From Prorocentrum cordatum (taxonomy: Eukaryota; Sar; Dinophyceae; Prorocentrales; Prorocentraceae), in the NCBI GenBank assembly GCA_963575745.1, contig CAUYUJ010015957.1, positions 239,745 to 303,744 of the forward strand: DNA of 64,000 bases, read 5' to 3'. Shown in pieces: positions 8,446 to 22,689 of this stretch. The notes below the pieces were generated by a model. It ran no database searches. It saw nothing but the letters and a program-made list of their open reading frames with translations, and was not told where the DNA came from. Each line of letters opens with the position of its first letter. Within the stretch, counting starts at the first letter, position 1. The position numbers and the translations under genes were made by a program.

Positions 8446-9460
8446 AATGCCCGACAGAGGTGAGCCTTCGCGGTTACCGCTCTGCCAGATCTTGCGCAAA
8501 GCAGAAACATCAGCCGCCAGAAACTGATGCGATATGTAGTCGTCATGGAAGAGCGCATGGATGTCCTCGCCCCAGACGGAGCGCCAGCCTTCATAGTCTG
8601 TTAGAAGCTCGAGCCTGTAAACGTCAGTCACGAAACGAACGGCGAACGGGTTGGCGTGAACGGCGAGGCGGCCCTCGGACAGGGTGGGGGCATTCTCGAA
8701 GCCGACGCGACCGAAGAGGAGGCTGATGACCTGGGAATGTTCTTCGGGCCATCTAACCATGGCCTGGTACCATCGAAGTCTCTGAACTAACAACTCGACC
8801 CCAGACGGAACAATATTCATCCATTTCCAGACCTCCCGAGAGTCCTTAATAATGGGATGATCTCCAGAACGGTCACACAAAGCCCCCGCAGCAATACATC
8901 GGATCTTACCCAAGAGCGCGATGTCCAGCTGGGCCTCTTGGGAGCTCGTGAGGAGATACGGCGTAAGTCCAGACAACAGCGCACCTTGCACCACAGATAT
9001 GAATACTAGCCTCTTCACCTTAAAAGGGGCCCCCGAGGTCCACAAATACTTAAAAGACATCCACCCCCTGTTGGCCGCTACTTTACTCAGTGCAAGCTGG
9101 TGGGAGAAGGCGCCAGAGGGCAAAAACTGAGGTCCCAAGTACCTGGTGTGCGGGGCCACTCGGGCCCCCCCGACCTCCGCAGCGTAAAACTGGCGAGTGG
9201 CCTTGTAACCACAAAGGCGGGGGACCAATACTTGTTTCGACGCGTTTTGCTTGTATCCGTACGCAGCCAGGGCATTGCCGAGCTTAGCCTGGGCTTCGCG
9301 CGCTGCGGCGACAGCCTCGGAAAGCGCCCCCTCCTGGAGTAGCAAAAAGTACGCCAGATCGTCCACGTATTTGAACAGGCCCGCATAGACCTCGCGCCCG
9401 AACACGGGGCACGACACGCACAAAGCAGGGTCCTGAAACTGGGCGAGCCACTCCTGGAGG
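8428..9460 (-). pseudogene. LINE B reverse transcriptase, C-terminal part
   Basis: An open frame of about 331 residues includes GLFKYVDDLAYFLLL, RT motif C with the catalytic YVDD (about 9380-9339). It continues with KQNASKQVLV and TRYLGPQFLPSG (thumb start) and a long helical C-terminal region. It is in a different frame from the first half of RT. The switch lies in a C-rich run near 9455-9462: across it one frame gives EFRVDFARP and the other LQEWLAQFQDPALCVSCP, which together make one continuous protein. Confidence 0.75.
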
Positions 9461-11700
9461 GGCGGGCAAAATCAACTCGAAATTCGTCGGGCGCACTGGG
9501 GTCCCCCATCAAAGCCCCGCTTTGGAGGTGAAGGGTGGTGGGGCGATCAACGCCCTCGAGGTGAAGTAGGTGCGTGGTGCGCCTGTCGCTGAGCAGGGCA
9601 ACATCCCCTGCTGGCAAATACTCTAAAAGTCCTTGGTTCATGCGCTTGTGCTCGCAGCAACCGAAAGCATTCTTCATGTCATCGAAAACAGCAATGCGCC
9701 ACACGCGTGCGCTACGCAAGCGATCCGCCAAGATCTGCGTGCCCAAAATGGCATTCTCTCGCCTGCGTCGAGGAATGCATCCGTGGTCGTACTCCGCAGG
9801 CGCAGCGCGTGGGACCGTCCTATAGATGCCCCTGGCAATGGCCCGAAAGAAGGGGCCGAGGCCGTGCAGAAACAGAGTGCCGCCGTCTGGTTTGGGGGTC
9901 TGCCAACCGAGAGAAAACCCCGCACACGTAGGAAACCTCCCCACCACCCGCCAGCACGTGGCCAGACTTCCCAAACCAATCTTGATGGCCTCTACCTCAG
10001 GGGGCTCAGGCTTTCCGCCAACTCCGAAGGGAGAAATACGTGGCTTGCTATAATACCTAGGCAGGAGAAGCATGAGCCAAATCTCGCCAGGGAGGGACCA
10101 GGCAGGGACGGAACGTCTGCGCGAAGCCTTGCGGAGCACCCACGATGCTCTACGAAGGTCTCTGGCTCCCAACTCCCCCGCCGAGTCCCGCTCACCCATC
10201 CCTTGGGGAGCCAATGAGGCCCGCGACAGTAAAAAATTGTCTAACTGGACTGGGACCGCGGAGAGACCCCCCTCGGAACCAGGAAGGCCCAGAGTGCCCG
10301 CGAGCTCATCAGCCGATGCAACGTGCCTGCGCACCGCCGCGTAGCTCCGTCGTTTGGGTCCCAGTCCAGTGCCCGCCAGTCTACGAGAGAAGTATTGCAC
10401 GCTGGCGAGATCACGCTTGCGCCAGGCCTCATGTATGCCTTCAGTCCAAGTCCTACGCAACGATCGCGTCCATCTTCGGACCCCCCACCTGATGCGATTC
10501 GTGAGGTCGCGGATCTGAAAATCGTAGTGGCAGTGGGGGAGGCCCATGGCGCGCAGCACAGCACGTCCACGGAGGAGGCGTCGTACCTGAAGACGGTGCT
10601 GCGCCAGCTCCGCGCCTGGGGTCCGCCTGGCCCTGCCGAAGTGCTTCTTGGCAATCGGCGCCAGCGCGTCCAAGAAAGAAGCGTAGCCTGCGTCGATTAT
10701 GTTGCTCTCGAAGTACCCCAGGTACGAGGGCGCCGCGCGCTGCAGGGCCAGGTTTGCCTCTTCCAAGAACCCCTCCCGCAGGCCTGGCGTCTGCAGCGCG
10801 GTCTCGACGGCGTCGAAGTTCCAGGAAGCCAAAATCTGCGAAGACCGCAGGCTCGGGACGCCCAGGTCCGCCTCCAGGAGCACGGGAGAGTGGTCACGCA
10901 GAATCCCCTTGGAGGGGTAGAGCTGGAGCTGCCTGGCCGCCTTAGTCATGGTGATCAACTTTGACACACGCGGCAGGGCTCCAGCGGGCAGGGCGTAGTG
11001 GTCAATCCAGGTAGACGACTTCTCGCCATTGCACGTGGGAGCAATCTTGTAAAAGGTGGTTGCGCAAGCAAAATGGTGTCGGTGCAGCACTTCACGGAGC
11101 CCTCGAGCGGCGTAGCCCATGCGAGACTGCACGTAGGGCCCGATGCAACTGAAAGAGCAACTGGTCTCATCCACCGCGAACGAGTCATTCAGGTCCGTGA
11201 AGATGATGGGGGTGGAGCGCTCGGGGGTAGTGTCCAGCAGTCCGTTCAGCCACTCGAGTAGCACGTCGACCGTGCGCCTCCATGTGGCCGTCCCCGAGCG
11301 CGGGCCAGGCGGCGGGAAGTACAGCGCGATGGCTGTGACATCGAGCGAACCAGTGACCACGCGCACCATCCCAGCACGGCCCAGCGCGGCGGCAGGTCCA
11401 GGGAGCACGCGGTGCACGCGCAGTCCTAGATCTCGGCGTCGTACTCCGATGGTGACACCTGCCGCTCTGTTGGTGAAGGGCCCCCTGCCGTACCCGAAGT
11501 GGTAGTAGTCGTGGTCTCCGATCTGCGTCTGCCGTCGCACCGCCTCCGTCGGCACCGCCCGCAGGCGGGTGCCCAGCAGGAAGTGGAAAGGGAAGCCCCT
11601 TGCCAGCAGCGCGATCTCGCCCAGCCTCCTCGGCTGGATCAGGCTGCACACATTGAACCCAAAAAAACTTGCAGCGCATGAGAGTACCCTGGGGAGTTCG
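9461..11700 (-). pseudogene. LINE B endonuclease and N-terminal half of RT
   Basis: One continuous frame covers both domains. Endonuclease: FFGFNVCSLIQ opens the domain. PIIFTDLNDSF is the D-x-N catalytic motif, with Leu where Phe is usual. STWIDHYALP is the S/T-x-ID motif, and DHSPVLLEADLG carries the final Asp-His. RT: KPDGGTLFL (about 9890), then the finger region, then AVFDDMKNAFGC (about 9690-9655), motif A with FDD. The endonuclease nicks target DNA and RT primes from the nick. The frame breaks before motif C, so this copy is not expected to give a working RT. Confidence 0.75.
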
Positions 11701-11959
11701 ATAGGGCGGTGCAGGGCCCCTCCTGAACTAGAAAGTGTCGCTGAGATGTTCAAGGCGGGGACCCCCTGCATGGGCCCACTGAATCGCGGCTCGACACAGA
11801 AAGGGGCTGGATGGACGAGAAAGACAAGGGGAGCAGGGAAAACGAGCAAGATGATCACTACAATGACGACGAGCAGGACGACTGGGAAGAGCTGGCGATG
11901 AAAAAAATGATGATGAGGATGACACGTTCCACCTTGCTGCGGGGGACTCAAATCGCATG

Positions 11960-12200
11960 CGAGAGCACTCAGACGCAGGAAGTGAGGAGAAGCGCAAGGG
12001 AGAGGAGGACCACGACGAAGAATAGAATTGCAACCATAATCTTGAACGAAATGCACACCAGCCGATGATACAGGACCTGTGCATGAACATGTTGCAGTGG
12101 TAGCAAAGTGAACTCCTCGTCGGAGCCGCCTGTAACGATCGGCACGTCCACTCGCAAAGCAACTACCACCAACTGCTTGCATAAAACGTCGCAACCAGCG
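11960..12200 (-). pseudogene. LINE B N-terminal Cys/His-rich segment
   Basis: One minus frame reads MLCEWTCRSL, then SSLCYHCNMFMHRSCII, giving C-x3-C followed by C-x2-C-x4-H-x2-C, a RING- or knuckle-like spacing. It is not in frame with the endonuclease below it. A hydrophobic run (VVLLVVIVVIILLVF) appears in the long frame at about 11900-11850, probably as a shadow of an acidic or simple stretch. Confidence 0.35.
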
Positions 12201-12210
12201 TACCTTCTCA

Positions 12211-12559
12211 CTCGAATGCTGTGCTGCTCGTCTTGAACAGAGCTGCGCTAGGACACCTCTCAGGGTCCGACCGTCGCTGTGTAGTTTGATCGCTGGTGCC
12301 GAGTGCATGGTTGAGGCTGCCCGAGAACGTGCACTGACACTATCCTGCGAAGCGTGATGTGCCGACCAACAGGCGGCTCTCACCCCATCCTCCCCTTCCC
12401 GTTCCCAATGCCTCCCCCCTGAATCCCACGTCGACCATCTAATTGATTTCGGCGACTCATCGCGCAACGGTGCATCAGATCCTCCAAGCATATAGAAGGG
12501 AGTGTCGTTGAACTTTTGTTGTTCGAGTCCGCGCCCGCAAGGGCACCGCTGGGGGACAA
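12211..12559. other. No gene seen; 5' flank of LINE B
   Basis: The minus frame that contains the endonuclease stays open through here to 12602 but shows no domain. The element's 5' boundary is probably within or just before this stretch. Confidence 0.35.
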
Positions 12560-12950
12560 GAGCGCTCAAGAGCGCCTCAAGAGCCCCCCCATAACGAGCC
12601 AAGAGCGCGGATCAACGCGCGTCAGGCCTCATGCTGCCCCCAAGATGTCCCCAAGATTGGCCAAGATGGCCCCGAGACGGCCCAAGATGGCACAAGCTGC
12701 CCTAAAGGACTTGAAGTCGGCCCCAGATGGCTAACCAATCTCTCCTCGGAAGCTCCCAGGAAGGCCGAAGTCATCAAGAAAGCACATGTTTTTTGGTGTG
12801 TGTTGGCCCTCTCGCCCTGGCGGGCTCCAGCGGGCATCTCGGGCCCCGAGGTGGCCCCAAGAGGACCCTGAGAGGGCCCCAAGACAACGCAAGAGGGATC
12901 CAAGATGGTATCAGGAGAGACCCAAGGGGCTCCAAAGGCGGCCCAATATG
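12560..12950. repeat. CCAAGATGGCC-type 11-bp array
   Basis: Degenerate tandem copies of CCAAGANGGCC and GAGNGGCCCCAAGA at about 11-bp spacing. The same unit builds long arrays at 31935, 52260, 54090 and 57450. Confidence 0.75.
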
Positions 12951-13271: not shown

Positions 13272-13318
13272 CACGATCCTCCGACCCCATCAACTCTGAC
13301 TCCAACTGGGAGGCCTAA

Positions 13319-13463
13319 GGAGGAGGAGGAGGAGGAGAAGAAGAAGAAAGAGAAAAGAAGGAGGAGGCGGAGGAGGAGGAGGAGGAGGAGGAGGAGTGGG
13401 AGGGGGAGGGGGAGGGGGAGGAGGAGGAGGAGGAGGAGGAGGAGGAGGAGGAGGAGGAGGAGG
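13319..13463. repeat. (GGA)n microsatellite with GGGGGA block
   Basis: A GGA/GAA tract in which the middle switches to repeated GAGGGG before returning to GGA. Confidence 0.95.
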
Positions 13464-13704
13464 CGCGCGGACCGCACGCCACCAGCAAGAGGCAAGCCTC
13501 GAGCTGGTGGTCCAGTTCAGGCAAGGCCCAGCTCACGCAAGGGCGTGGGCCGAGCGAAAGGGGGCCGCCCCGCCTGCCTGGCCTCGTCGCTCACCAGCCT
13601 CCTCAGCGCCGAGAGCACCAGGAAGATGCACACGTGTGCGGCGGGGGAGGGGGGAGGCGACGGGCGACAGACGACGGGGGCAGCCCAAGAAAACTAAAAC
13701 GAGT

Positions 13705-16700
13705 TTAGTCAGAGCCCGAACTCGCTCCATCAGGAGCAGGTTCGGGCCCACGGGCCGCTTCCAGCAGCCTCAAAGAAATGGAAACTCGGCGGAGCTCCGC
13801 GCGGTCATCGTCGCGCTCGGCGGCGTCAAGAGCAATCTTCACGCCCGTCTTGGGGTAACACCCACGCTCCAGCCGACGGATGGACATTCTCTGATTAGCA
13901 GCCGTGCTCGGGACTTTGGATCTTCCTTGGCATTGCTGCGCGAGGTTTCGCAGCGAGCCGAGAGAGCCATGAGCCCCGCACAGCTTGCAACAGTACACAT
14001 GTAGGTGACGAAAAACGTCGTGCCCAAGGTCCCGAAAGGCAGAAAACTCATCCGACGGCTCGGGCTCAGCCACGGGAGTTGGGGGACCTTGGACCTCATC
14101 AGTGCACACACGCTGAACTTCGTCAGCAGCAGCCAGAGCAACCCTCACCGCTTCCAGCTGCACGGGCCTAAACGCAGCCCCAAACTCACAAAACCACTGG
14201 TCGCACACGTGTCGCTGGATCGGTGACGGCATACAGTCACGAGTGTCTCTACTCGTGAGCAGGCTCTTAAGTGACTCCGACGTGCGAGCAACACGGCCAC
14301 AGCTCCTGCACTTATAGGTGCTGGTGGCCTCACAGCGAAACAACACATGGCTAGTGACCGTGACCTTCGGAGGGGCAGGGGCTCTCAAGAGGCGGAGGGA
14401 ACGATCAGGGTCAACTTGCGTCCATGTGCCAGACTCGAGCAGCCGTTGGGCAGCCCATGCAATGAATCGCACCGTGGATTTATGATATTTTAAATCCCCT
14501 GACACAGCCGCGCAAAAACCCTCAGAAAGCGTGTGAGAGCCGGCCCCTAGTTTGGCGAAAAAGTCAGCCCACAGATTCCCAGCCCAACTTTTGACACACA
14601 GACCACGCTCCAACACGTCATCGAAACTCAGATGGGCTGGGACCCATGAGAACGGGGGGTGATTTGACTTAAGATCAAATATGGACCTCCAGATCGAGGC
14701 ATGCTTGGACATGCCTTGGGAGAGATGCTGGCTCCAAGAAATGCCTTCTCGCACAACAGCCTGGAGGTCCGATACAATACTCTGATGCTGCGGGTGAAAA
14801 GCCAGCCCCTGCCGCACAGCCCAGCGTTCTGCACGACCTATGGTCTGACGCTCACCTGGGAGCGCTCCATATACGGCCCTCAGGGGAAGCAAACAATCAA
14901 ATAACTGCACAACGCTCCAACCAGCTCTGGAGACCTCTGGGACCCCAGAGTGATAGCAACTACCATCAGTGAAAGACTGAGGGCCCCAGGACCCAGAGAC
15001 GTCCCCAAACTCAAAAACAGGTGGGTTGGCTAGCGGAGCGGGGATGTTGGTAGGCAAGGGAGGAATGCCATAAGTTAAATAATTAGAGTGCACATCGGGC
15101 TCCCCAGTTATAGAGGCCCGAGACTGGATCAACACGCGCCTATGCCTAGCCAGGGCCTCAGGAACCTCGTCACCCAAAGCGTCAACCCCGTCGTCGGCGA
15201 TGAACTTAGAGCAGGCATACCACACGTGTCCGTACGTGCCTTGAGGAGCGGAGCAGGCAAGGCACTCAGGTAGCCCATCATATTGCAGAGCAGACAGTGC
15301 AGCAGGTAGCGGAACCACATTCCCCCAGACGGCAGCAAGGGCCCCAAGAGCACGCGGGTCTTTTACGGCACGTATACCATGACGAAGTGCACGAAACCAA
15401 GGCTCCCCTTCTGGAGGGTCAGTGTTATAGAGGTGCTGCTGCAACCGACGTATCTGCCACCGCTGCACCCCTTCGATAATCGCAATTCGCACATCACTGG
15501 GACACACCACCAGCAGCGAAATATCTGTACCAAGATCGCTGCGAAAAGTGTGGGCATTGACCATCGTCCAGCCTATGCGAAGCAGGCTGAGCCACACCGC
15601 CGACAGCGGACCACGAGCCTGCTGCCAAGTAGGGTTGTCGGACATGATATCTCTCAAACAGGTCCACGCACGTTGAAGCCTCGATATCTGAACCCTTCCG
15701 TCCCAGACGAACGTGGCGAACTTGACACACACGCAAATAGTGGAGTCGTAGATCGGGTCGTATAGCGGATCGGCCTGCGTCAGCAGATACGACGTGATGC
15801 CACCGTGCTGCTTGGCATCTGCGATCGTAGCCGCAAGCTGCCTCAAATACTTCAGCGCCGTGTCTGAAATGCCCGAGACGGAACCACCGTGCCCAGCCGC
15901 TGGGAAAGCTCCAGTCCTCCAAAGTCGGGTTGCACGCTTGCCAGTTGCATGTTTCAGTGCAATGAACTTGTCACGGCGACGTTTAAGAGCATGTAGCCTT
16001 TTCTTCTCCTGAGTGCGAACAACCCGACCAGCAGCTAATTCATGCCCGAGATTTCTCATCCATTTACGAACAGGTAGATGCAGCCGAATAGCCATCTTCG
16101 AGAAAACCTTCCGAGCAACCTTGTTCCCTGCTATGGGCCCCGACTTTTTGACCTGGGAGTAAAGCCCGAGAACCTTGGCATCTTCGGTGAACACTTTCAC
16201 GGCACGCTCCAGGAAACGCACATCACGAGGATCCGAGGTGACAAGCTGAATCGAGATGTCGTCGACGAGGGCTCTCGGTGTTATACAGGGCGAAATGTCA
16301 CAGAGTCTACGCACAGCACGCAGCGTGAGAAGGAAAAGCATGCCTGTCGCATGATTGCACCCAGCAAGGATGCCTTGATGCGAACAGAACTGCAGCGACA
16401 AGCTGCCGAAAGCTCGAAGACGCCGTGGCTGCCTGTACAGATCCACCAGCATCCAAGCTAGCCGCATTGGAAAGTGTAACGCTTCAGCCTCTTTCAACAG
16501 CTGCTCCGAGTGAACCATTTCGAAGCATTTGATCATGTCTAAGAGGACAGATATTGAAATATCACCGACTAGCGCTGCCATTTCGGCAGCAATGTTGTGG
16601 GCAAACGCACTGTCTGAGGAACTGTGCCCACGACGAGTACCCCAAACAGCGTAGCAGCCATTACGCTCTTGCCAGTCGAAGGTGATGGGCTTACGAACTT

Positions 16701-18987
16701 TGCCCCAGACACGGCACAGCAGCGAAACGAGAGCGATCAGACGAGTCCCACCATCTGGTTTGGCAAGACGGCACATCTCATTACAGACACGCTCTCTAGG
16801 CCAGGCTAAGTGCAGCTCGCACAGGTTAAAGAGTTCAGCAATCGCCGAAAAGGCCGGCCTAGGCAAATGGATTAAAGCTCTCGGATGAATACCCATCATG
16901 CCTCCAGCAGTGCGAGTGGGGTAAGTGTGAACAGCATCCTCCACCTGAGCGGCCGTGATGGGCGGCAGCATGGGCCAGCTGGTGGACCCTCGGGGAGACT
17001 CAAGAGCGGAGCAGCCGTGGGTCAACCAAACCTCCTTCCAGGGTTCAAGTTCAGCATCGGCCTGCTGGTGGGGTGCCTCTCGCGCCTGGTTGCTTAAAAC
17101 CTCTTGGATGGCCTTCACTTTTGAGAACCTGTGAGCCTTCGAAGCACCAGCAGAAAAGGCGTCCCTAGCCCATTGCCTCCAAGCCTGGGACGCCGCATTC
17201 TCCGCACGAGTGACAGCTGCCTTCGCACGAGTGTAAATAGTAGTGAGCATGCTGGCCACATCAGGACGTGCGAGGACGGCGAAGCCGCCATTGAAGAAAT
17301 CTCGCACATCCGAGTCGAGGCAACCCAAGACTTTTTTGCAGCGGGCGATGTTGGCCATAAAACGATCGAACTCATCAAATGCAGTGAGAAGCTTGCGATA
17401 TTGCAGGGTCGCAAGCGAACACAGAGCATCGTTTTCTTGCATTAGCCTAATTTGCTCATTAAGATGTTCTCTGGCCTTGCCTAAGTGTTTGGCCCAACCA
17501 AGAGCGACAGCCCAGGCACGTGCCTGCGGATCCTTATAAGTCCTCCTTCTGGGGGGAGTCCAGACAAGCTTTTTGAAGTGGACCTCCAGAGGCCCGCTGC
17601 GGCCAACATAGGCCTCGGCGGCTAAGCCAACACGGTCCCACCTGGCAGCCAACTCTCTTTCCACCCCTTCGAGGACGAGGTCCCAAAAATCGGCGACCTT
17701 GGCTACAGAATCAACTTGCGGGGCGGCGGTCGACAAAACCGCGTGCCACGGGTAGATAGGAGGTCTAGCACAGCCTATGGGAGGGGTAGACGGGAACGCT
17801 TTCGGGACCTTGGCCACCCGAGCCCAAACCGGGGCCTCCCGAGCCCTCAAAGTAAGCTGGACGGGGAGGTGAGGGTAGGTGGTAGCAGCCTCCAACACAC
17901 ACGTGCGGGGGTTAAGCTTTGGCGCAAGCCAACTGCTACAAATAAAATAATCGATGTGCGTGCCAGGTGAAACCTGCCTGCAGGTGGGCGCCTCAGAAAC
18001 GAAAGCCAGTCCGCCAGCAGCCGCGATCCAGTCGGACTGGTCCAGGGCAGCGAGCGGCATGTTGAAATCGGCGCCGATGACCCACGGGATCTGCATGCCG
18101 TTGAGCACTGAGAGGTACTCGATAATCTCCCACACCAACTCGGCGTTGCACGGTCCATATCCTTCGCCGTCCTTGAGATAAGCCGACAGGAAGACGACAC
18201 CGCCAGGCAGAAAAGACATGACGTGTGCAGCCACAAGCCTGCCAGGGACAAGGACGTGACTAGCGCAGCCAGGGGGCGCCTTGATAGGAATATGTGACCT
18301 GACCAAAACTGCAACGCCGCCTGTGGTGCCAGGCCCTCCATCCTGATTGGGCACGGCGGGGCCCCAGAGCCCTCTCCAGCCAGTATCTTCAACTTGCGAC
18401 TGTCGCTCGCCAAGCTTGGTATCAGGAACATGGTGCTCTTGCGCAAGCACCACATGAGCAGTGCTGTCCACAAGGTAGTCGCACAGTGGACCCAGCGAGC
18501 TGGAGTTGAGCGTCACGATATACGAGTCGCTTTTGCCCTTCGCCTGGCCAGCAACCTTGACATCAGGTCGACGAACCCCTGGGCAGTCGGTACCCTCTGC
18601 CACGCGTTGCCCATCGGGCGAGCGGGGTGAGCAGTGCGTGCTGCCAGGGCCTAAAAGATTCATGCCATCGGAACAACCAGCAGTAGAGCCAGCCACCCTC
18701 GTCGAGCAAGAGGCCGATATCGTCAAAGCAATAGGCGCACATGTGGCGCTCTCTGCCTGCCACCTGGTGACAGGTGAGTGTAGCGACCGAGACGATGACG
18801 TAGCACCCGCAGTCGCAGCGGCCGCCCTTGCAGAAGACGCAGAAGGGGCAACCTGGTCGCATGTGACTGGCAGATATGGCTGACTGTCAGATGCTTCATC
18901 AAATTCAAAAGGATCAACATCAGGATCGTCCATGAGAGAACGTCTGGGAGCTGAGGTCAGCTCATCTTGGGCAGTAGGCGTCGCCAT
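13705..18987 (-). CDS. LINE C ORF2: endonuclease, reverse transcriptase, RNase H polyprotein
   Basis: A protein of 1760 residues starting MATPTAQDEL, the first ATG after the ORF1 stop; the frame is open upstream, but that part overlaps ORF1 out of frame. AP-like endonuclease (about 18530-17830): SYIVTLNSSSL, VLAQEHH, GADFNMPL (catalytic D-x-N) and THIDYFI. RT: KPDGGTRLIALVSLL, SVLLDMIKCFEMV (motif A, about 16550-16510) and RALVDDISIQLV (motif C, about 16285-16245). RNase H: FTDGSC (about 14975), GRAERWAV, VSDLQAV and WADFFAKLGA (about 14575), giving the D-E-D-D set. Tail: KCRSCGRV (about 14310) and YCCKLCGAHGSL (about 14000), two Cys-pair motifs. It would perform target-primed reverse transcription. 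About 100 residues near the N-terminus may be in the wrong frame (18862-18563). Confidence 0.88.
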   Translation of the reverse strand: MATPTAQDELTSAPRRSLMDDPDVDPFEFDEASDSQPYLPVTCDQVAPSASSARAAAATAGATSSSRSLHSPVTRWQAESATCAPIALTISASCSTRVAGSTAGCSDGMNLLGPGSTHCSPRSPDGQRVAEGTDCPGVRRPDVKVAGQAKGKSDSYIVTLNSSSLGPLCDYLVDSTAHVVLAQEHHVPDTKLGERQSQVEDTGWRGLWGPAVPNQDGGPGTTGGVAVLVRSHIPIKAPPGCASHVLVPGRLVAAHVMSFLPGGVVFLSAYLKDGEGYGPCNAELVWEIIEYLSVLNGMQIPWVIGADFNMPLAALDQSDWIAAAGGLAFVSEAPTCRQVSPGTHIDYFICSSWLAPKLNPRTCVLEAATTYPHLPVQLTLRAREAPVWARVAKVPKAFPSTPPIGCARPPIYPWHAVLSTAAPQVDSVAKVADFWDLVLEGVERELAARWDRVGLAAEAYVGRSGPLEVHFKKLVWTPPRRRTYKDPQARAWAVALGWAKHLGKAREHLNEQIRLMQENDALCSLATLQYRKLLTAFDEFDRFMANIARCKKVLGCLDSDVRDFFNGGFAVLARPDVASMLTTIYTRAKAAVTRAENAASQAWRQWARDAFSAGASKAHRFSKVKAIQEVLSNQAREAPHQQADAELEPWKEVWLTHGCSALESPRGSTSWPMLPPITAAQVEDAVHTYPTRTAGGMMGIHPRALIHLPRPAFSAIAELFNLCELHLAWPRERVCNEMCRLAKPDGGTRLIALVSLLCRVWGKVRKPITFDWQERNGCYAVWGTRRGHSSSDSAFAHNIAAEMAALVGDISISVLLDMIKCFEMVHSEQLLKEAEALHFPMRLAWMLVDLYRQPRRLRAFGSLSLQFCSHQGILAGCNHATGMLFLLTLRAVRRLCDISPCITPRALVDDISIQLVTSDPRDVRFLERAVKVFTEDAKVLGLYSQVKKSGPIAGNKVARKVFSKMAIRLHLPVRKWMRNLGHELAAGRVVRTQEKKRLHALKRRRDKFIALKHATGKRATRLWRTGAFPAAGHGGSVSGISDTALKYLRQLAATIADAKQHGGITSYLLTQADPLYDPIYDSTICVCVKFATFVWDGRVQISRLQRAWTCLRDIMSDNPTWQQARGPLSAVWLSLLRIGWTMVNAHTFRSDLGTDISLLVVCPSDVRIAIIEGVQRWQIRRLQQHLYNTDPPEGEPWFRALRHGIRAVKDPRALGALAAVWGNVVPLPAALSALQYDGLPECLACSAPQGTYGHVWYACSKFIADDGVDALGDEVPEALARHRRVLIQSRASITGEPDVHSNYLTYGIPPLPTNIPAPLANPPVFEFGDVSGSWGPQSFTDGSCYHSGVPEVSRAGWSVVQLFDCLLPLRAVYGALPGERQTIGRAERWAVRQGLAFHPQHQSIVSDLQAVVREGISWSQHLSQGMSKHASIWRSIFDLKSNHPPFSWVPAHLSFDDVLERGLCVKSWAGNLWADFFAKLGAGSHTLSEGFCAAVSGDLKYHKSTVRFIAWAAQRLLESGTWTQVDPDRSLRLLRAPAPPKVTVTSHVLFRCEATSTYKCRSCGRVARTSESLKSLLTSRDTRDCMPSPIQRHVCDQWFCEFGAAFRPVQLEAVRVALAAADEVQRVCTDEVQGPPTPVAEPEPSDEFSAFRDLGHDVFRHLHVYCCKLCGAHGSLGSLRNLAQQCQGRSKVPSTAANQRMSIRRLERGCYPKTGVKIALDAAERDDDRAELRRVSISLRLLEAARGPEPAPDGASSGSD
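18563..18862 (-). other. Cys/His-rich segment in an alternative frame inside LINE C ORF2
   Basis: The frame shifted relative to ORF2 reads CPFCVFCKGGRCDCGCYV, then LTCHQV, then RHMCAYCFDDIG, ending at a stop at 18563. The ORF2 frame over the same bases is low-complexity Ser/Ala/Thr. The Cys/His spacing is what one expects of a zinc-binding N-terminal domain of LINE ORF2 proteins. It may be the ancestral frame, entered and left by two compensating indels, or reached by frameshifting. Confidence 0.45.
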
Positions 18988-19042: not shown

Positions 19043-20188
19043 TTACGCAGCGGTCTTGCCACTGGTCTTGAACTTCTTCGTAAGCGATTGAACTTGTGCC
19101 AAGTGACGCTTGAGCTTATCACGAAGCTCTCGCACATTGGGCTCATCAAGCTCGTCGTCTTCACCGCCCACGTCGACATCAATGCCACATTCTTTGAGAT
19201 GTTCACGGCATGTGCGACCATCCAGGCCATCAACGTGAGCATTAGCACGAGCCTGATCCTCAGCATCGTCGACGTCCATGGGTGCTCGAGCCTCAGGAGG
19301 AGCGGTGTGAGCCTCAGGCTGTGGAGCAGACGGTTCGGGTGCAACAGTGGCCTCTGGGGCTTCCTTGAGCTTCTGAACCAGCGCGCGCATGGCGATGAGG
19401 TCGGTGCTGAACCGCTCCGACCCGCCCAACGCACGGACAACGGCGTCGAACTGCTCGACCGTGGCCTCCATGCCTGGCAGGAAGGTGGACAGGGAAGGTG
19501 CCTTGTCATCAAACTGCACGGCAGGGACGACCACATGGCGCAACCGCTCCTCAAGTTCCACGATGTGCTTGTTAGCGTCCTGCTCGTCCTGCTCGACCTG
19601 CGCAAGGGCCTGCTTGGCCTTCTCCAGGGTAGAGCGAGCAGCCTCCTTTTTGACAGCCAGATTGGACAGCTTCGTGCGAGCAGTCTTGAGCTGGCTGGTG
19701 AGCCCCTGCAAGTTGGCCTCCAGCGGTTTGTCGGCCTGCAACTCAGCCTGCAGGCGCTGCTTCTCGGCCTCGAACACCGCACGCTGCTCGGCGTCCTCAG
19801 GCCCCGACAGGAGCTTGAGCAGACTTCCAAGCTTGGTGAGGCGCTCACGTTTGACAGCAGCGTCAGTGCCTTTAGCCCAGGGAGGGATCGCAGGCTCCTT
19901 GGGCTCCACAACCGTACCATTTTGACTGACAACCATCTTCTGCATGCGCTGCTGCAATTCTTCCAACTGCTTCGTGAGAAGCTTTTCACGCTTCGTGGCC
20001 ATGTCGTGAGACCGCTGGACGGGGACCTTGGGCGGAGGGACACCTTGGAAAGCTGAGCCTTTCGGGATGCCACACTTGCCACACCACTTCTGATCGCCAC
20101 GATTGATCCAGCTCGTGCCAGTGGGCTCATGCTTGCACCATTTACAATACCATGGGCCTGCCTCCGCACTGCGCGACCTGGGAGCCAT
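19043..20188 (-). CDS. LINE C ORF1: zinc-finger and coiled-coil RNA-binding-type protein
   Basis: A protein of 381 residues starting MAPRSRSAEAG at the first ATG after the leader; the frame extends upstream without an ATG. Residues about 13-40 read WYCKWCKHEPTG and KWCGKCGIPKG, a C-x2-C...C-x2-C finger of RanBP2-like look. Residues about 60-220 are rich in Leu/Glu/Lys/Gln heptads (KQLEELQQRMQKM, FEAEKQRLQAEL, ALAQVEQDEQDANKHI), a long coiled coil as in many LINE ORF1 proteins that bind RNA and oligomerise. Residues about 275-310 are Pro/Glu/Ala-rich and acidic. The C-terminus is helical and basic (LRDKLKRHLAQVQSLTKKFK). ORF2 starts 55 nt downstream, so it may be expressed by reinitiation. Confidence 0.85.
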   Translation of the reverse strand: MAPRSRSAEAGPWYCKWCKHEPTGTSWINRGDQKWCGKCGIPKGSAFQGVPPPKVPVQRSHDMATKREKLLTKQLEELQQRMQKMVVSQNGTVVEPKEPAIPPWAKGTDAAVKRERLTKLGSLLKLLSGPEDAEQRAVFEAEKQRLQAELQADKPLEANLQGLTSQLKTARTKLSNLAVKKEAARSTLEKAKQALAQVEQDEQDANKHIVELEERLRHVVVPAVQFDDKAPSLSTFLPGMEATVEQFDAVVRALGGSERFSTDLIAMRALVQKLKEAPEATVAPEPSAPQPEAHTAPPEARAPMDVDDAEDQARANAHVDGLDGRTCREHLKECGIDVDVGGEDDELDEPNVRELRDKLKRHLAQVQSLTKKFKTSGKTAA

Positions 20189-20390
20189 GCCGACGGGCGG
20201 ATGAGCAGACCGAGCGCGCACACGAGACACCACGCGAGGCCTGACAGGCGGGCCGTGGCGGGGCTGGGCCGTGCGGGGCGGACCGCACAGCGCTCTGCCT
20301 GGGGCGAACCAGGCGAAAACGTTGAAGACTGCCGCGGTAACAGCGGTATCCAGTTTGGCACAAGGGCGCGGAGCCCTTCAGTGCAGAAGT

Positions 20391-20412
20391 CTTGAGCCAA
20401 AATGGCTACGGA
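20391..20412 (-). other. Dinoflagellate spliced-leader relic
   Basis: Read on minus, the 22 bases begin TCCGTAGCCATTTTGG and end CTCAAG. They match the published dinoflagellate leader consensus (D-CCGUAGCC..., ending GGCUCAAG) at every position. The next bases are not the GT donor of a spliced-leader RNA gene, so this is a leader already joined to an mRNA and copied back into DNA. It lies 203 nt upstream of the ORF1 ATG. Confidence 0.93.
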
Positions 20413-20472
20413 GAGGAGGAGGAGGAGGAGGAGGAGGAGGAGGAGGAGGAGGAGAAGGAGGGGGGGGAGGGT
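20413..20472. repeat. (GGA)n tract at the LINE C 5' junction
   Basis: A GGA tract begins at the base after the spliced leader and runs into G-rich sequence. It separates LINE C from the 442-bp array and may be the original target. Confidence 0.9.
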
Positions 20473-20480
20473 GGTGGTGG

Positions 20481-22689
20481 TCACTGCATAAGGGAAACAG
20501 AATCCCGAGCAGAGCAACACGCACCACGACCACGACGACGCCGACGACGACGACGACGACGGAGACGAGGCGCGCTTACGATCCGCACCGAAGCACGGAT
20601 TTGGGAAAGGGCCCACCCTGCAGGTTCGGTTAAACAGCACATCGTTGAGCGGTGCTGCAGCCTCCCCTGAGCACAGGCCCCCCCAGAGCATCAGCCAGAC
20701 AAGTCGGGTTTGCACCCTCATGCCTTGCTGGACTCTGGGCGCGTTTCGGCACCCTCTCCCCCAACCTCGTCAGGGCCACCGACAAGGGAGAGGGCGGCGG
20801 TGGCCGACGCGTCCCCGAGCTAAGAAGCTCAAAGCGCCGCGGCTCAGAGAGCCGGGAAGACAGACAGACAGACGGACGGACGGACAGCCAGGCGGCGTGC
20901 AATGCCTGGCAAGCCAAGTGGGTGGTCACTGCATAAGGGAAACAGAATCCCGAGCAGAGCAACACGCACCACGACCACGACGACGCCGACGACGACGACG
21001 ACGGAGACGAGGCGCGCTTACGATCCGCACCGAAGCACGGATTTGGGAAAGGGCCCACCCTGCAGGTTCGGTTAAACAGCACATCGTTGAGCGGTGCTGC
21101 AGCCTCCCCTGAGCACAGGCCCCCCCAGAGCATCAGCCAGACAAGTCGGGTTTGCACCCTCATGCCTTGCTGGACTCTGGGCGCGTTTCGGCACCCTCTC
21201 CCCCAACCTCGTCAGGGCCACCGACAAGGGAGAGGGCGGCGGTGGCCGACGCGTCCCCGAGCTAAGAAGCTCAAAGCGCCGCGGCTCAGAGAGCCGGGAA
21301 GACAGACAGACAGACGGACGGACGGACAGCCAGGCGGCGTGCAATGCCTGGCAAGCCAAGTGGGTGGTCACTGCATAAGGGAAACAGAATCCCGAGCAGA
21401 GCAACACGCACCACGACCACGACGACGCCGACGACGACGACGACGGAGACGAGGCGCGCTTACGATCCGCACCGAAGCACGGATTTGGGAAAGGGCCCAC
21501 CCTGCAGGTTCGGTTAAACAGCACATCGTTGAGCGGTGCTGCAGCCTCCCCTGAGCACAGGCCCCCCCAGAGCATCAGCCAGACAAGTCGGGTTTGCACC
21601 CTCATGCCTTGCTGGACTCTGGGCGCGTTTCGGCACCCTCTCCCCCAACCTCGTCAGGGCCACCGACAAGGGAGAGGGCGGCGGTGGCCGACGCGTCCCC
21701 GAGCTAAGAAGCTCAAAGCGCCGCGGCTCAGAGAGCCGGGAAGACAGACAGACAGACGGACGGACGGACAGCCAGGCGGCGTGCAATGCCTGGCAAGCCA
21801 AGTGGGTGGTCACTGCATAAGGGAAACAGAATCCCGAGCAGAGCAACACGCACCACGACCACGACGACGCCGACGACGACGACGACGGAGACGAGGCGCG
21901 CTTACGATCCGCACCGAAGCACGGATTTGGGAAAGGGCCCACCCTGCAGGTTCGGTTAAACAGCACATCGTTGAGCGGTGCTGCAGCCTCCCCTGAGCAC
22001 AGGCCCCCCCAGAGCATCAGCCAGACAAGTCGGGTTTGCACCCTCATGCCTTGCTGGACTCTGGGCGCGTTTCGGCACCCTCTCCCCCAACCTCGTCAGG
22101 GCCACCGACAAGGGAGAGGGCGGCGGTGGCCGACGCGTCCCCGAGCTAAGAAGCTCAAAGCGCCGCGGCTCAGAGAGCCGGGAAGACAGACAGACGGACG
22201 GACGGACAGCCAGGCGGCGTGCAATGCCTGGCAAGCCAAGTGGGTGGTCACTGCATAAGGGAAACAGAATCCCGAGCAGAGCAACACGCACCACGACCAC
22301 GACGACGCCGACGACGACGACGACGGAGACGAGGCGCGCTTACGATCCGCACCGAAGCACGGATTTGGGAAAGGGCCCACCCTGCAGGTTCGGTTAAACA
22401 GCACATCGTTGAGCGGTGCTGCAGCCTCCCCTGAGCACAGGCCCCCCCAGAGCATCAGCCAGACAAGTCGGGTTTGCACCCTCATGCCTTGCTGGACTCT
22501 GGGCGCGTTTCGGCACCCTCTCCCCCAACCTCGTCAGGGCCACCGACAAGGGAGAGGGCGGCGGTGGCCGACGCGTCCCCGAGCTAAGAAGCTCAAAGCG
22601 CCGCGGCTCAGAGAGCCGGGAAGACAGACAGACAGACGGACGGACGGACAGCCAGGCGGCGTGCAATGCCTGGCAAGCCAAGTGGGTGG
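20481..22689. repeat. 442-bp tandem array, five near-identical copies
   Basis: Copies begin TCACTGCATAAGGGAAACAG at 20481, 20926, 21368, 21810 and 22248. The spacings are 445, 442, 442 and 438; the differences are one GAC unit in a (GAC)n and one GACA unit in a (GACA/GACG)n tract. Otherwise the copies look identical. Each copy has a minus ORF starting MRVQTRLVWLMLWGGLCSGE, which resembles a signal peptide, but since 442 is not a multiple of 3 the frames run out of register into the next copy. Confidence 0.97.

Follow-up and report, generated by a model that had tools for sequence, protein, structure and literature searches.

LINEs of one family in the dinoflagellate Prorocentrum cordatum begin with the host spliced leader, which stands at the 5' end of the element at many loci, lies within target-site duplications and in some copies is accompanied by relic leader units. 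Judging from these DNA copies, we consider it very likely that the RNA of the LINE is trans-spliced to the host leader, as host mRNAs are, and that target-primed reverse transcription runs on through the leader, so that new copies are leader-headed. Retrogenes with leader relics are known from dinoflagellates, where a trans-spliced RNA is reverse transcribed and re-inserted together with its leader (PMC12014239, PMC6050394, PMC3229502). In dinoflagellate genes, splicing of a new leader to the TAG at position 7 of an older one leaves relics of 15 nt (PMC3229502, PMC12014239). The enzyme responsible for the retrogenes is, in the sections of the literature cited here, left open or held to come from an LTR element (PMC6050394, PMC12014239, PMC3942190).

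The leader and the LINE in the window

The window, that is, the whole stretch of 64,000 nt that was analysed, contains the leader TCCGTAGCCATTTTGGCTCAAG on the minus strand at 20412-20391, with 22 of its 22 bases present. A scan of the window found no other match at three or fewer mismatches, and 100 shuffled sequences gave none. LINE C lies on the same strand, with the leader in sense at its 5' end, and a 5' UTR of 202 nt (20189-20390, minus strand) separates the leader from the ORF1 ATG at 20188. The first-pass annotation had described a complete 22-base leader in sense with LINE C, 203 nt before the ORF1 ATG, and a LINE with intact ORFs; these points hold, 203 being the count to the A of the ATG and the frames of ORF1 and ORF2 both being open.

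ORF1 (19043-20188, minus strand) encodes 381 aa with N-terminal cysteine pairs that appear zinc-finger-like by eye. It has no Pfam match, residues 26-209 of P0003 are weakly matched, and no ORF1 homologue was found among 8000 scored candidates. The part of ORF2 that was used (13705-18669, minus strand) covers 1654 aa of an open frame that extends further and is stop-free down to 13705, and carries an endonuclease (residues 62-246) and a reverse transcriptase (residues 636-843) in one ORF, as in APE-type LINEs. The Pfam match to Exo_endo_phos (E 6.1e-6) is above its cut-off; that to RVT_1 (E 1.2e-5) is under the curated cut-off, yet its position is as expected. ORF2 aligns over long stretches with P0001 and P0003, and its homologues among 8000 scored candidates are three P. 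cordatum proteins with 34-38% identity, while searches of ORF2 in viral contigs and against solved structures gave no result. LINE C occurs once within the 64-kb window. An open frame of 1174 aa at 9087-12611 on the minus strand is RT-like by eye, has no Pfam match and is perhaps a decayed LINE.

The element is flanked on both sides by (TCC)n tracts, which the first-pass annotation had left unremarked. The 5' flank (20413-20470) is (GAG)n, or (CTC)n in the sense of the LINE, and is taken as the insertion target from repeat analysis and from the pyrimidines in this flank across copies. The 3' flank (13318-13463), (AGG)n or (CCT)n in LINE sense, has the same repeat in the same orientation. Between ORF2 and this tract lies the 3' UTR (13464-13704, minus strand); it ends in ..GGTCCGCGCG with no poly(A) tail, and because target repeat follows directly, a repeat tail and the target are indistinguishable here. 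A 442-bp unit is repeated five times in tandem at 20476-22689, with 99% similarity between the copies, immediately on the upstream side of the 5' repeat tract.

In a leader RNA gene the leader would be followed by GT, the start of the intron. The bases after the window leader are ACTTCTGC, beginning with A, and a leader RNA gene is thus ruled out as the identity of this leader. GT directly follows none of the first 20 genomic leaders that were sampled, and among the next 10 it follows that of L089. GT alone is not decisive, because one group of copies, C2, starts with GTTTTGG and yet was recovered as the same LINE with the 541-nt probe used for the census.

The motif GGATACCGCT..CCGCGGC, noticed by eye in the 5' UTR (20331-20351, minus strand), could fold into a small stem-loop and recurs after the leader in LINEs with otherwise different 5' UTRs; it is slightly altered in the C2 copies, L010, L016, L018 and L095. 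A hairpin between the leader and the 5' UTR was also considered. In the predicted fold the leader pairs with an inverted stretch that resembles it at 17 of 22 positions (plus strand, 20343-20364), and the candidate was dropped for want of a signal in the window element (p = 0.08, dinucleotide shuffles) and in 21 elements pooled (Fisher p = 0.42).

Copies of the LINE in the assembly

The assembly comprises 4.128 Gb in 21,875 contigs. Copies were located with a 541-nt probe that begins right after the leader, so that the finding of a copy is independent of the leader. The probe gave 41 matches in 40 copies, the window counted, these being the best 40 of 220 candidates, and a pattern of nt 2-27 after the leader (at most 2 mismatches) occurs at 16 places assembly-wide, 12 of them previously found by the probe. 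The 5' ends of 44 copies were read, namely the best 40 of 220 and 4 from the pattern. The copies scored are thus the best-matching, nearly full-length ones, and leader-free or truncated copies, L066 being one, are therefore under-counted.

The leader forms the 5' boundary of 41 of the 44 copies and is exact in 36 of these, with altered leaders in L040, L062, L067, L068 and L069. Among the remaining three, L066 has no leader, is 5'-truncated and does not align at the leader position; the junctions of L045 (gap) and L055 (contig end) are unreadable and were not judged. The copies fall into two groups that differ in the 33 nt directly after the leader, C1 (n=16), which starts with ACTTCTGCACTG.., and C2 (n=25), which starts with GTTTTGGTT.., and each of the 16 places in the genome that have the C1 start is leader-headed. 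Upstream flanks differ between copies and are shared in three pairs (the window and L031, L051 and L060, L071 and L072), which leaves at most 38 independent insertions. The sequence upstream of L031 is the same as the 442-bp tandem units of the window.

The first-pass annotation had claimed that element sequence stops at the leader, and had named as contrary evidence other copies in which homologous sequence extends past the leader position, or a leader in this copy alone together with a lack of LINE transcripts that carry it. Copies are alike up to the leader and, apart from the three pairs, their upstream flanks diverge. Such an extension is present in none of the 44 (at that position L066 fails to align, and L045 and L055 could not be judged), and the leader is far from private to this copy, given its presence in 41 of 44, including 16 of 16 C1 starts.

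Target-site duplications and insertion target

Both ends were compared in 16 copies, the window with 10 others and then 5 more; C7357 (L082), which ends before the 3' end, was excluded. Duplications are clearly readable in 4 of the 16 (C19100, 19-20 bp; C8945, 18-19 bp; C18429, 16 bp; C14887, 16 bp), and their variable length of 16-20 bp is as in APE-type LINEs. In all four the leader is inside the duplication, and it belongs to the LINE insert, not to the target. The first base of the leader is also within the duplication in C18429 and C14887, which indicates that reverse transcription got to the base next to the cap. In the other 12 of the 16, repeats hide the duplication, or it is short or was not seen: C17697 has one of 16 bp that is partly readable, C15539 has 10 bp only, and comparison of both ends of C11625 found none. 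Clear duplications occur where the target is not pure repeat.

The 40 nt before the leader are at least 90% pyrimidine in 37 of 40 scored copies, as against 0.8% of the 40-mers of the window. Most insertions lie in one repeat type, as is the case for microsatellite-targeted elements, but some targets are pyrimidine-rich without being (TCC)n. SLACS, CZAR and NeSL are leader-exon elements, which insert into the leader RNA gene. LINE C does not do so, as pyrimidine-rich or other DNA lies upstream of it and its leader is enclosed by the duplication.

Tandem leader units

A single leader unit is present in 32 of the 41 leader-headed copies, two units in 8 (L040, L042, L054, L062, L069, L070, L071 and L072, the last two with a common flank) and three in one (L032). 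The count of leader-ended family copies proposed in the first-pass annotation accordingly stands at 41 of 44, with 9 of the 41 carrying two or three units. In L032, L042, L054 and L062 the additional units are exact relics of 15 nt, and elsewhere they are slightly changed; L062, whose changed leader start was missed by the script, was assigned its two units by hand and has no pyrimidine score. The tandem units in 9 of 41 copies fit the signature of re-splicing onto an older leader that is described for dinoflagellate genes (PMC3229502). C92, with three units, and the window copy, with one, are identical across 541 nt, so units were gained, or lost, recently.

Copies with one unit could result either from splicing at the last AG of the leader or from a leader-free source, and the 32 of 41 copies that have no relic give no proof of re-splicing. 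No leader-free source is found among the 16 places with the C1 start; such a source may be absent from the assembly. L073 (G000:C10724:4127-4627) likewise matches the window element at every base of the 541-nt probe region, and has about 80 nt extra, a different stretch, before the common ..CCGCGCGCC 3' end.

Leaders elsewhere in the genome

The 21-nt leader occurs exactly 14,218 times (7201 + 7017) in the 4.13-Gb assembly, or about once per 290 kb, and a reversed-pattern control occurs 0 times. At this density some leader in a 64-kb window is not rare, and it is the exact position at the LINE 5' end across many copies that counts. Two Symbiodinium genomes have been reported to hold 496 and 244 leader sequences (PMC8045281), by methods that differ from ours.

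At 30 sampled sites, chosen by exact leader, LINE coding lies downstream in sense after 20 leaders and in antisense after 0 (14/20 among the first listed and 6/10 among those taken at every seventh place, with antisense 0 in both). A LINE match upstream of its leader in L017 was excluded from the count, and L098, which spans just 1.6 kb past its leader, was kept among the 10. The LINE seeds include seven of the 20 loci, six with Pfam RT matches (two under the cut-off) and L028, which matches the window ORF2; the weakest LINE matches are L023 and L094 (38-39 bits), followed by L092, L012 and L022 (67-74 bits). LINEs that are unlike each other right after the leader carry the same leader, and L015, a LINE of another family, has a 15-bp duplication and an A8 end. 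An exact second unit is present at 5 of the 30 sampled leaders (L013, L018, L023, L025 and L096).

Six of the first 20 leaders have no LINE coding after them (L011, L013, L017, L021, L025 and L029). Pfam matches that might identify host genes were weak in the ORFs scanned at these six, with KOW in L017 barely over its cut-off (5e-5) and two matches in L011 below. Flanks like (TCC)n or (GGA)n are present at 5 of the 6, which suggests that the same machinery may have acted there. In G000:C1:887522-902876 a second leader-headed insert lies in a TCC tract after the L016 LINE, with the L017 leader downstream.

An exact 11-nt (CCT)n run lies within 6 nt before 1614 of the 7017 reverse-strand leaders (23%), and a (GGA)n run before 643 of the 7017 (9%), where chance would give 0.6% each, as measured over window positions; reverse-strand counts were used because the forward lists count some sites repeatedly and the reverse list repeats none in the part shown. 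The flanks of the first 20 sampled leaders are (TCC)n-like in 10, (GGA)n-like in 7 and other in 3. DNA resembling (TA)n precedes the leaders of L020 and L092. Related non-microsatellite sequence (..GGAGCACGGCAGA..CACA..) is found before the leader in L021 and L098 and may be another insertion target.

A single contig of the viral collection, IMGVR_UViG_3300045993_001077 (L001), contains the exact leader, in two copies. The contig is AT-rich and has a stretch of visibly different composition (1936-2913), with an ORF of 267 aa right after one leader; a virus may here have acquired a dinoflagellate mRNA.

Discussion

We propose a cycle in which a genomic copy would be transcribed, perhaps by read-through, and the host leader would be spliced to the RNA, and thereby cap it, at the AG that directly precedes ACTTCTGC or at the TAG within an older leader. 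The ORF1 and ORF2 proteins would be translated from this RNA, and the ORF2 endonuclease, if the enzyme has that role, would nick a pyrimidine-rich, mostly (TCC)n target. Target-primed reverse transcription would then proceed from the RNA 3' end through the entire leader, its product being a leader within 16-20 bp duplications. That the leader is joined to the LINE RNA, and that it is copied at the target in this way, we hold to be highly probable. The first-pass annotation had already read the element as the product of a trans-spliced LINE transcript whose reverse transcription reached the leader, and this reading gains support from 41 of 44 leader-headed copies, the leader inside four duplications and tandem units in 9 of 41 copies.

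The new copy would then consist of a pyrimidine tract, CCGTAG, CCATTTTGGCTCAAG and the element, an arrangement that resembles a ready 3' splice site. Splicing in the next round at the last AG of the leader would renew the 5' end, and splicing at the inner TAG would leave a 15-nt relic; copies of both kinds are present, with one unit in 32 of 41 and two or three in 9. Whether the tract and the copied leader serve as the next acceptor seems to us evenly balanced. The idea would suit the pyrimidine-rich (TCC)n flanks, but it is weakened by the (GGA)n targets, which put purines upstream, and this is its main weakness.

A different source for the trans-spliced RNA is conceivable, although we think it somewhat improbable. 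A leader-free master copy with its own promoter and splice acceptor may make that RNA, the leader-bearing offspring being dead ends, in which case only the self-renewal of the last step would be rejected. A single unit in 32 of 41 copies is as expected from a direct leader-free source, and a copied leader brings no upstream promoter. However, 0 of the 16 places with the C1 start are leader-free, and the copies with two or three units (9/41), one of them identical to the window over 541 nt, require a leader-bearing parent. It is very improbable that the leader has instead been DNA-encoded since one ancient capture, with transcription starting there and no trans-splicing in each round: copies with one unit are by themselves compatible with such inheritance, but 9 of 41 copies have 15-nt relics, the form left by TAG splicing, and the same leader heads LINEs that are dissimilar right after it (at sites chosen for an exact leader). 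Chance, an assembly chimera or a leader gene beside the LINE might be entertained in a repeat-rich assembly with 14,218 leaders, but for this family they are already refuted by the same junction in 41 copies with mostly different flanks and by the leader within readable duplications; 0 matches in shuffles and the lack of GT after the window leader also speak against them.

To return to trans-splicing and reverse transcription through the leader, a wider version may be put forward tentatively, and we rate it as doubtful. The LINE cycle would be promoterless, with pyrimidine tract and copied leader acting as acceptor, read-through RNA being cut out and capped by the host, and the 5' end being renewed or gaining one 15-nt unit per round. 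Such LINEs, with several repeat targets, would account for most genomic leaders and would provide the machinery of leader-tagged retrogenes.

We found no report of LINEs headed by the dinoflagellate leader in the open-licence full-text papers that were consulted. The nearest precedent found there is in Schistosoma mansoni, where six transposable elements are merged with a genomic leader exon, and where the authors suggest elements that were trans-spliced and reverse transcribed but could not separate the six cases from assembly chimeras (PMC5832876). A genomic leader is fused to transposable elements in both organisms; for P. cordatum there are in addition the census of a family, relic units and duplicated target sites. 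In dinoflagellate retrogenes, too, a leader-bearing RNA is back in the genome with 15-nt relics from re-splicing at TAG, but their cargo, in the descriptions cited above, is host mRNA, whereas here it is a LINE, which encodes the enzyme itself, inserts into a repeat and is bounded by duplications. With a leader in sense at its 5' end, LINE C resembles a leader-tagged retroposed sequence, but its cargo is a LINE and not a host gene.

Cer1 of Caenorhabditis elegans is similar in that a retrotransposon transcript acquires the host leader SL1; however, it is an LTR element, in which, according to the passage cited, SL1 is present on some but not all of the spliced 2.4-kb mRNA, while the 8-kb RNA does not undergo trans-splicing at this site (PMC3315495). 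L1Tc of Trypanosoma cruzi is, like LINE C, a non-LTR element whose host joins a leader to its mRNAs by trans-splicing, but it has taken the opposite course, with transcription from the internal promoter Pr77 and transcripts that are not spliced (PMC4748587). Microsatellite-specific non-LTR elements (PMC4640811) share the preference for repeats as insertion sites; in contrast to these and to leader-exon elements, the target here is pyrimidine-rich, mostly (TCC)n, and the leader is not the target but comes with the element.

These results carry a warning for the use of genomic leaders as marks of retroposed genes. With LINE coding after 20 of 30 sampled leaders, such tallies also count LINEs. 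Sense LINEs that carry the leader and have duplications are, moreover, a direct candidate for the enzyme behind the leader-tagged retrogenes of dinoflagellates. Each new LINE copy needs a defined 5' end and a means of transcription, and in this family host splicing appears to resupply the 5' end. If the promoterless cycle is true, the 15-nt leader units would act as a generation counter.
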